The translations under genes and the position numbers were made by a program. 64,000 nucleotides of DNA from the NCBI RefSeq assembly GCF_001038455.1, contig NZ_LDUY01000022.1:62001-126000 (forward strand), written 5' to 3'. This document shows, piece after piece, positions 57,624-62,015 of the stretch. The DNA comes from Fructobacillus sp. EFB-N1 (GTDB taxonomy: Bacteria; Bacillota; Bacilli; Lactobacillales; Lactobacillaceae). Every line of letters begins with the position of its first letter. Position 1 is the first letter of the stretch. Below the pieces are notes generated by a model, which was not told the DNA's origin, did not search any database, and saw nothing but the letters and a program-made list of their open reading frames with translations.

Positions 57624-57685
57624 GACCGTGATATATTCAACGTGCTGTATTTTTTGTGCTACATGGCACTGAAAGGAAGAGAACC

Positions 57686-58177
57686 ATGGCGGAAGAAAAG
57701 AAATTCCCAATGACGGCCGCAGGTCGTGACAAATTGCAAGCGGAGCTTGATGACTTAATTACCAAGCAACGTCCAAAAATTACTAACCGCATTCAAATCG
57801 CACGTTCATACGGCGATTTGTCTGAAAACTCTGAATACCAATCAGCAAAGGACGAACAAGCCTTTGTTGAAGGACGGATTGTGACCGTTCGCAAGATGAT
57901 TGAAAACGCTGAAATTATTTCAGCTGACAACTCTGACAGCGATGAAGTGACATTGGGTAAGGAAGTAATCTTTAAGGAACTTCCAGATGAAGATCCCGAA
58001 ACCTATACTATCGTTGGTTCTGTTGAAGCGGATCCAATGGCTGGTAAGATTTCAAATGAATCACCAATGGCTGCTGCCTTGCTTGGCAAGCATAAGGGCG
58101 ACACCGTTAAGGTGCCATTGCCTAACAACGTTGAAATTCAAGTTGAAATCTTGTCTGTTAAGACAAAGCAAGACTAA
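57686..58177 (+). CDS. greA: Transcription elongation factor GreA
   Basis: 163 residues. Stimulates transcript cleavage by stalled RNA polymerase. The N-terminal coiled coil has the acidic tip ([18 protein letters not shown]) and the C-terminal FKBP-like domain ends in [20 protein letters not shown] precedes the ATG at 57686; the longer upstream frame is not needed. Confidence 0.96.
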
Positions 58178-59358: not shown

Positions 59359-59384
59359 AAAAAAAGCCTGACAAAGCAGACTTT
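59359..59384 (-). terminator. Terminator after the MltG/GH73 gene
   Basis: AAAG-CTG/CAG-CTTT stem with one opposed pair, U-run on the minus strand. Confidence 0.55.
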
Positions 59385-59390
59385 CAAAGG

Positions 59391-60608
59391 TTAATTTTTA
59401 TCGTATTGAGCTAAGTTCCAATTTTCAATAATCTGGATAATCAGCTTTGGATAACTAGGATCTGTGGCATAACCATCAGTTGACAATGCTTGGGCAGCAT
59501 CCTTGTAATTTTTAGCAGCCAAGACATCAGCAAACTGGTTGGCATTCCAAGTATTTCCATTGGCGATTGTCTTAGCGTGAGCCTTCATGGAATCTTGATA
59601 AGAGTCGTAAACTGCAAAACGAGCATTCTTCGTCACCGTTTGACCGTTTTCAACTTCTTGAGTCTGCAAAACGACTGATTTACCAGCTGTTGTGTCATCC
59701 GTCTTCACACCATAGTAATTATTATACTTTGATGACAACGCAGAATCGTCCCAGTTTGATTCGTGGATAGCCTGAGCGATTGAAATTGACGCCAGAATAC
59801 CATACTGGGATTGAAGACTCTGGCTATATGGCGCAATCTTCCTAATAAAGGCTAAACGCCGGTCAAACTCTTTCTTACCGCCGTTTTCCGCTAGCAAAAT
59901 GGCTGTCGATGCCGGAATCTTATTGGCTTTCAATTGAGCATAATATGGCTTTAAGGTCTTATTCGTCTGTTTCAACATGGTCATGACCAAATCCTTGGCA
60001 GACTTTTCTTTCTTGAAACGATAGATTCCTGGATAGACGAAATCATACAAAGTCTGGTCACTCTTGGCATTTAAGAATAACTGTGGGTATTCCTTCTTAG
60101 CTTGAGCAATTAAATCACTATCACTATAAGCAGCCAATAAATCAGACTTTGATACACCAGCAGCATCAGCAATTGTTTGTGCCGTCTGCTCTGCTGTCTT
60201 CGTATTTGAAATAAAGGTATAGCCGGAAGACAAAACCGGTTCAGCTCCAGAACCCTCTGTTAATTCTTGGTAAATCTCAGCAATATCTTGAACCTGTGAC
60301 AAGGGATAAGTGCCACCCGCAATATCTTTAGCCCCATACTTATTTGCATAACTAACAAAGTAGCGACTATTGCGGATAATCCCCTCTTTTTGCAACTGGG
60401 CACCGATTTCCTTGACGCTCGCCTTGTCCTTGACTGTAACCATCGTGACCGCGGTGTCATTTGGATTCTTTGCCTGATATCCCTGGCGATTGAACCAGAA
60501 GGCCCCACCAGCTGCTAATAGCAAAACGAATAGGATCATGATAATTCGGAACCGCCAACTATGTTTTTTGCGTTTCTTTGACGATTGCCGACGTTTTTCA
60601 AATTCCAT
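59391..60608 (-). CDS. Cell-wall hydrolase with MltG-like N-terminal region and GH73 glucosaminidase domain
   Basis: 405 residues. A basic tail and one signal-anchor helix (about 20-40) place it outside the membrane. Residues about 55-215 look like the N-terminal half of MltG/YceG (VKDKASVKEIGAQLQKEGII, AGGTYPLSQVQ, FVYPGIYRFKKEKSAKDLV). After AILLAENGG, where MltG would have its lytic core, a GH73 domain begins at about 255 (LASISIAQAIHESNWD with the catalytic Glu, then SSKYNNYYGVK) and runs to the C-terminus. The combination is not the usual MltG. Start at the ATG 60608; a TTG five codons earlier is possible. Confidence 0.8.
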   Translation of the reverse strand: MEFEKRRQSSKKRKKHSWRFRIIMILFVLLLAAGGAFWFNRQGYQAKNPNDTAVTMVTVKDKASVKEIGAQLQKEGIIRNSRYFVSYANKYGAKDIAGGTYPLSQVQDIAEIYQELTEGSGAEPVLSSGYTFISNTKTAEQTAQTIADAAGVSKSDLLAAYSDSDLIAQAKKEYPQLFLNAKSDQTLYDFVYPGIYRFKKEKSAKDLVMTMLKQTNKTLKPYYAQLKANKIPASTAILLAENGGKKEFDRRLAFIRKIAPYSQSLQSQYGILASISIAQAIHESNWDDSALSSKYNNYYGVKTDDTTAGKSVVLQTQEVENGQTVTKNARFAVYDSYQDSMKAHAKTIANGNTWNANQFADVLAAKNYKDAAQALSTDGYATDPSYPKLIIQIIENWNLAQYDKN

Positions 60609-60718
60609 CAGTAATGTTTCCAATCTTCAATCTTATTTCGCCTGATCAACTCGATTTGTACGGGAGTTTAACCAGCAACTCCTAGTATACTACCCTTTAT
60701 AAAGAAATATAATTAAAA

Positions 60719-60782: not shown

Positions 60783-62015
60783 TTAAGCCATCAATTCTTG
60801 CACATCTCGAGCAATCATCAATTCTTCATCAGTTGGCACAACCAAAGTCTTAATCTTGGCATCAGCAGCTGAAACATCAGCCTCTTCACGGCAACCAGTG
60901 TTCTTATCCTGGTCAATCTTGATGCCAAAGTAACCTAAGCGGTCAACGACTTCTTCTCGAACCCAATCAGCATTCTCACCAATCCCGGCAGTAAAGACCA
61001 AAGCATCGGCACCACCCATTTCAGCAATGTATTGACCGATGTAACGAACAACACGGTCAACAAAGATTTTAATTGCCAAATCAGCCTGTTCGTTGTCCTT
61101 ACGGGCAGCCAAGAGATCACGCATATCACTTGAGACCTGTGAAATTCCCTGCAATCCTGATTTCTTGTTCAGAATTGTCAACATGTCTTCATTTGACAAA
61201 TTTTCCTTGGTTTGGATAAAGTTTACCAATGAAGCATCCACATCCCCTGAACGAGTCGCCATCGTCACACCTGCTAATGGTGTGAAGCCCATTGATGTAT
61301 CAAATGACTTACCGCCCTTAACAGCCGTAATTGAAGCACCGGCACCAAGGTGCAAGGTAATCAACTTCAAGTCCTTCAAATTCTTGCCTAAGATGTCAGC
61401 AGCACGACCGGCAACATAACGATGTGAAGTTCCGTGAGCACCATACTTACGTGCACCATACTTTTCATAGTATTCATAAGGTAATGAGTAAAGGTAGTTC
61501 ACCTTTGGCATTGTCTGATGGAAAGAAGTATCAAAGACGGCGACAGAAGTTGCGTCTGGCAATAACTTTTGGAAAGCACGGATGCCCAACGCGTTGGCTG
61601 GGTTGTGCAATGGTGCATAATCAGCCAATTCATCAATCTTAGCTAAGACATCATCGTTCACCAAAACAGACTTGTCAAAGTATTCACCACCAGCAACAAC
61701 GCGATGACCAACACCAACGATTTCGCTAAAGTCTTGGATAATATCCAATTCTGACAACTTTTCAAGCATCAAGTTAATGGCAACTTGGTGGTCCTTGATG
61801 GCGGTAACGGTCTTAAACTTAGCCTTGTCACCAGATACCTCAACATCAGCATTCTTGGCCGCTTGATCATTGGCCGCAAACTTGATCGTTACAATGGCAT
61901 CATCCATTCCGATTCGTTCAATTAACCCTTGGGCGATTACTTGCTCTTGTGGCATCTCTAAGAGCTGAAACTTCAATGAAGAACTACCGGCATTCACTGC
62001 CATAATCTTTGCCAT
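60783..62015 (-). CDS. ackA: Acetate kinase
   Basis: 410 residues. Converts acetyl phosphate and ADP to acetate and ATP at the end of the phosphoketolase pathway. It has NAGSSSLKFQ at the start, GHRVVAGGEYF, VFDTSFHQTMP, LGAGASITAVKGGKS and the FTAGIGENA loop. It follows ytxK and the comG operon, the usual order in lactobacilli. No cre is evident in the 42-bp spacer. Confidence 0.97.
   Translation of the reverse strand: MAKIMAVNAGSSSLKFQLLEMPQEQVIAQGLIERIGMDDAIVTIKFAANDQAAKNADVEVSGDKAKFKTVTAIKDHQVAINLMLEKLSELDIIQDFSEIVGVGHRVVAGGEYFDKSVLVNDDVLAKIDELADYAPLHNPANALGIRAFQKLLPDATSVAVFDTSFHQTMPKVNYLYSLPYEYYEKYGARKYGAHGTSHRYVAGRAADILGKNLKDLKLITLHLGAGASITAVKGGKSFDTSMGFTPLAGVTMATRSGDVDASLVNFIQTKENLSNEDMLTILNKKSGLQGISQVSSDMRDLLAARKDNEQADLAIKIFVDRVVRYIGQYIAEMGGADALVFTAGIGENADWVREEVVDRLGYFGIKIDQDKNTGCREEADVSAADAKIKTLVVPTDEELMIARDVQELMA

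Follow-up and report, generated by a model that had tools for sequence, protein, structure and literature searches.

What does a protein do that begins as MltG and ends as a glucosaminidase? The length of glycan strands is believed to be set at the membrane by MltG, and a gene from Fructobacillus sp. EFB-N1 joins the membrane-anchored, non-catalytic two-thirds of this enzyme to a GH73 domain: a natural domain-swap experiment. The gene (Table 1) lies in the window analysed here, a stretch of 64,000 nucleotides from contig NZ_LDUY01000022.1. Its reading frame is intact from an ATG at 60608; translation is less likely to begin at an in-frame TTG at 60623. The protein has a basic cytoplasmic tail (residues 1-17) ahead of its anchor helix, and is identical (100%, a rounded value) to one in F. 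tropaeoli F214-1. Its AlphaFold2 model, based on 9 sequences, has a mean pLDDT of 71.6.

Table 1. Features of the fusion gene and its surroundings, in window coordinates.
Feature	Position	Strand	Residues or size	Remarks
Fusion gene	59391..60608	-	405 aa	Transmembrane anchor, MltG LysM-like module, MltG middle subdomain, GH73 glucosaminidase
Membrane-anchor helix	60483..60557	-	18-42	From sequence, and helix 18-42 in the AlphaFold2 model
MltG LysM-like N-terminal module	60243..60467	-	48-122	
Middle MltG subdomain	59886..60242	-	123-241	Includes FVYPGIYRFKK
Junction AILLAENGGK	59874..59903	-	236-245	Remnant of the beginning of the MltG catalytic helix, without the catalytic Glu
GH73 glucosaminidase domain	59394..59864	-	249-405	
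Glu283 codon	59760..59762	-		Aligned with Glu122 of Listeria Auto (3fi7)
Glu318 codon	59655..59657	-		Aligned with Glu156 of Auto
Terminator-like hairpin and T run	59362..59385	-		Directly 3' of the fusion gene
ackA (acetate kinase)	60783..62015	-		Upstream of the fusion gene; identified by sequence
greA	57656..58177	+		Convergent neighbour; identified by sequence

An earlier note on this DNA held that the N-terminal half follows MltG, and the comparisons bear this out. The Pfam YceG profile matches residues 57-230 above its curated cut-off (E=4.5e-18). Residues 48-237 match the Listeria MltG homologue Lmo1499 (4IIW) by sequence alone (E=4.9e-11), and residues 53-233 of the model align with chain 4iiw_B (Z 12.7, 176 residues), which rules out an unrelated fold. 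The high rmsd of that alignment, 11.2, probably reflects a differing orientation of the subdomains. Moreover, a profile of 19 fusion N-terminal parts aligns over 225 columns with one of 30 full-length MltG proteins from the same family (probability 100, E=3.7e-38).

Equally clear is where the resemblance ends. The YceG match covers profile positions 1-149 of 275; positions 150-275, the catalytic part of MltG, are absent. The NCBIfam MltG model TIGR00247 matches residues 22-232 with 67.7 bits, below its cut-off of 103.4, and lacks its C-terminal third. The profile-profile alignment stops where the MltG catalytic helix (LASLVERE) starts. At this position stands AILLAENGG, to which the earlier note had drawn attention, and which the end of the alignment identifies as the stump of that helix. 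Full MltG proteins gave phmmer matches reaching residue ~298. These were treated as over-extension, because the N-terminal query alone ends at 237 and the GH73 domain is ~52-57% identical to stand-alone GH73 domains of close relatives. The protein thus keeps the single-pass anchor and LysM-like module of MltG, and lacks the C-terminal catalytic domain with its Glu residue.

The GH73 domain begins within a few residues of the break, and all later MltG sequence is gone. The match to Pfam PF01832 is complete (residues 260-399, E=9.2e-32, 110.7 bits against a cut-off of 30.2), so that GH73 indeed stands where the lytic core of MltG should be. Many NCBIfam GH73 models match within residues 236-404, and model residues 249-403 align with Listeria Auto (3fi7; Z 13.9, rmsd 3.9, 146 residues). 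The motif IAQA.HESNWD and the downstream Glu residue are kept in 19 of 19 fusions; Glu283 lies within IAQAIHES, which fits the GH73 motif AQxxxES. Presumably, Glu283 and Glu318 play the roles of the Auto residues with which they align, Glu122 (catalytic) and Glu156. The surrounding active-site lobe (residues 285-315) is modelled with low confidence (pLDDT under 50).

Small membrane-anchored GH73 proteins of 200-222 residues, with a SagB-like layout, are widespread in Lactobacillaceae (L071, L087-L095, L098, and L102-L105). Proteins of this kind are the likely source of the fused domain.

Does the fusion replace MltG or complement it? The earlier note allowed both. A search of the genome found no YceG match other than the fusion, which argues for replacement and leaves no normal mltG to be complemented. 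One further GH73 protein is encoded (L071, 218 aa, membrane-anchored, C22:40755-41189). The sole SLT match (C25:17045-17329, outside the window) lies inside a 1715-residue reading frame, which probably encodes a prophage tape-measure protein. Replacement of MltG by a Pmp23/MpgB-type enzyme was considered and rejected: the corresponding lysozyme-like family, PF13702, had no match in the 16 Lactobacillaceae genomes searched, this one included.

The exchange is shared by a group of relatives. In a sample of 301 genomes from the family, whose genera carry g-numbers and whose genus names are inferred except for Fructobacillus (g1), MltG is full-length in most genera (E about 1e-58 to 1e-85). Only partial-length YceG matches occur in g1, g6, g7, g16, and g39, and searches with the protein found a fusion relative (44-100% identity) in each of the 19 genomes searched from these genera. 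The long fusion is present in 10 of 10 aligned Fructobacillus genomes and in four related genera; altogether, the same architecture recurs in 19 aligned genomes, several of them single-contig assemblies. Samples of the order (345 genomes) and of the phylum (348 genomes) were searched as well. Among the matches listed, MltG-like and GH73 ones stand apart, and no fusion was found outside the group. Rare exceptions are possible.

Closely related fusion-bearing genera differ strongly in GC content at the locus (0.40 in L043, from g6; 0.48 in L045, from g39).

Two reduced forms occur in other genera. Genus g29 encodes a short fusion of 286-291 residues: anchor, LysM-like module, and GH73, with the middle subdomain missing. 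MutS1 was not found in any of the five g29 genomes searched, an absence that we take to point to Oenococcus, the probable identity of this genus. Genera g5 and g34, which appear to be Weissella-like, have only a stub of 114-132 residues, comprising the anchor and LysM-like module (L073, L074, L076-L078, L081-L083, and L086). The middle subdomain is missing here too, and the LysM-like module is common to fusion, short fusion, and stub. Finally, some genomes of g5, g26, and g37 (for example G005, G063, G098, and G285; ~99% complete) yielded no trustworthy match to YceG or to the stub. The genomes themselves have mreC, and full MltG is present in congeners of those from g26 and g37. This pattern points to repeated loss of MltG within Lactobacillaceae. 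A connection between this loss and a disappearance of the elongation machinery was rejected as far as mreC goes, as the gene is present in 33 of the 33 genomes checked and is retained alongside the fusion.

Gene order bears on the origin of these forms. A lactobacillus with full MltG (L097) has the ancestral order pheT-mltG-udk-greA, and the g5 stub occupies the same place, with pheT on one side and udk or greA on the other. The Leuconostoc-like locus reads ackA-fusion-transporter-greA, with ackA upstream as in the window. The Oenococcus-like g29 locus, read in one genome, is ackA-adhE-short fusion-(one gene)-greA, so ackA is one gene further away. The GH73 tree groups the long fusions in one clade (100/99) and the short ones in a second (100/100), and uniting the two is not rejected (p-AU 0.47). 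The tree is therefore neutral, and it is the similarity of the loci that favours one origin for both kinds of fusion.

The extracellular parts of the long fusion are all under purifying selection. Between Fructobacillus species, identity is 89-96% in GH73, 57-89% in the LysM-like module, and 68-93% in the middle subdomain, making GH73 the most constrained part. In these comparisons dN/dS is at most 0.08 in each of the three parts where computable, with dS mostly saturated. Three related stubs give dN/dS of about 0.05-0.09, indicating that the stub is likewise maintained by purifying selection.

These observations suggest a model, which we consider fairly probable, in which a membrane-held glucosaminidase cuts nascent glycan near the membrane in place of MltG, the LysM-like module setting the distance. 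The C-terminal catalytic domain encoded by mltG would have been replaced in place by GH73, in a common ancestor of Fructobacillus, the Leuconostoc-like genera, and probably Oenococcus; the incoming domain would have been of the same kind as in the family's small membrane-anchored GH73 proteins. The product would cross the membrane once. Its LysM-like module would bind or measure the nascent strand close to the strand's membrane end, and its GH73 domain would cleave the GlcNAc-MurNAc bond by hydrolysis at a set distance. New strands would be freed from the membrane, as they are by MltG/MpgA and SagB. The predicted substrate follows from the parts, since the protein joins an MpgA-type anchor and LysM-like module with SagB-type chemistry. 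In pneumococcal MpgA, an MltG homologue, the LysM domain directs cleavage to a point seven units away from the lipid anchor (reviewed in PMC8563077), and in Staphylococcus aureus the membrane GH73 protein SagB acts with SpdC to release nascent strands of set length (reviewed in PMC12272431).

The chief rival to this model is that the protein could be an ordinary autolysin or a glucosaminidase for cell separation, in which the MltG remnant is a mere anchor and wall-binding module. Release of nascent strands would then fall to another membrane GH73 protein, or to none. We think this unlikely but worth weighing. The second small membrane GH73 protein of the genome could do the releasing, which counts against our model, and the survival of relatives that lack any YceG match suggests that MltG function may be dispensable in Lactobacillaceae. 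Against the autolysin reading, the fusion took the place of mltG rather than being added to it, and purifying selection has preserved what comes from MltG, the middle subdomain included. Moreover, the LysM-like part is kept elsewhere with no catalytic domain, implying that it does more than tether a hydrolase. The same Weissella-like stubs, as a non-catalytic part retained alone, lend something to a different idea: that the fusion is itself catalytically dead or regulatory, binding nascent glycan and scaffolding the elongation machinery. Conservation of the GH73 acidic residues, in the most constrained part of the protein, makes such a role improbable.

A bifunctional enzyme, with residual lytic transglycosylase activity in its MltG part, seems very improbable. 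Its one attraction is the Glu residue at the junction (E241), which is found only in Fructobacillus. The Leuconostoc-like genera do not conserve it, most fusions outside Fructobacillus reading ATSGK, SVSGK, or STSGG, and in the profile alignment it falls three residues before the catalytic Glu of MltG, ahead of which the homology has already ended. AILLAENGG, which the earlier note placed at the junction, therefore marks the start of the old helix, and its Glu is not a surviving catalytic residue. Least probable of all is an artefact of assembly or annotation, whether a chimera in the contig or a pair of genes mistaken for one. We found nothing in its support, and recurrence of the same architecture across five genera, in many independent assemblies, refutes it.

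The model of a membrane-held glucosaminidase acting in place of MltG has a broader and more tentative extension. Retention of stubs with no catalytic domain suggests that the anchor and LysM-like module are the functional core. It is possible, if rather doubtful, that these two parts of MltG form a separable, membrane-held ruler or adaptor for nascent glycan, served by interchangeable cutters: the protein's own catalytic domain, as in most bacteria; GH73 in cis, as in Fructobacillus and the Leuconostoc-like and Oenococcus-like genera; or a membrane GH73 protein in trans, as in the Weissella-like genera.

If the fusion does the job of MltG, then it is the anchor and the LysM-like module that control strand length, and the chemistry of bond cleavage is interchangeable. 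MltG/MpgA and SagB would be linked as two solutions to one task. Moreover, the walls of Leuconostoc, Oenococcus, and Fructobacillus, which live in food and wine, are predicted to have glycan strand ends that differ from those of other lactic acid bacteria. YceG and GH73 are known families; literature searches on MltG with GH73, SagB, or Leuconostoc did not find this layout described or characterised. (This is weak evidence, as most subscription papers lay outside their scope.) Nor did we find a description of the combination replacing MltG across a clade, or of the series from full MltG through fusion to stub.

How does the fusion compare with known systems? With MltG/YceG proteins (E. coli MltG and Listeria Lmo1499) and with MpgA it shares the anchor, LysM-like module, and middle subdomain, but not the MltG catalytic domain and its Glu residue. 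Its predicted chemistry is hydrolysis on the GlcNAc side, whereas MltG is a lytic transglycosylase and MpgA acts as a muramidase. It is the sole YceG locus of its genome and, like lactobacillar mltG, lies near greA, which in lactobacilli with the ancestral order is found just downstream of mltG-udk.

The GH73 half has its own kin. It shares its fold and acidic residues with Listeria Auto and with Enterococcus AtlA (7qfu); the residues of Auto are E122 and E156. Auto and AtlA are secreted autolysins with other wall-binding modules. In the small GH73 proteins of Lactobacillales, L071 among them, the GH73 domains are ~41-57% identical to that of the fusion, and the two have in common a basic tail, a transmembrane helix, and GH73. 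Unlike the fusion, these small proteins have no MltG-derived modules, and in other genera they occur alongside full MltG. SagB likewise is a membrane-anchored GH73 protein, and release of nascent glycan at a set length is what we propose for the fusion. To our knowledge, SagB has neither the LysM-like nor the middle module of MltG; it relies on SpdC for length control.
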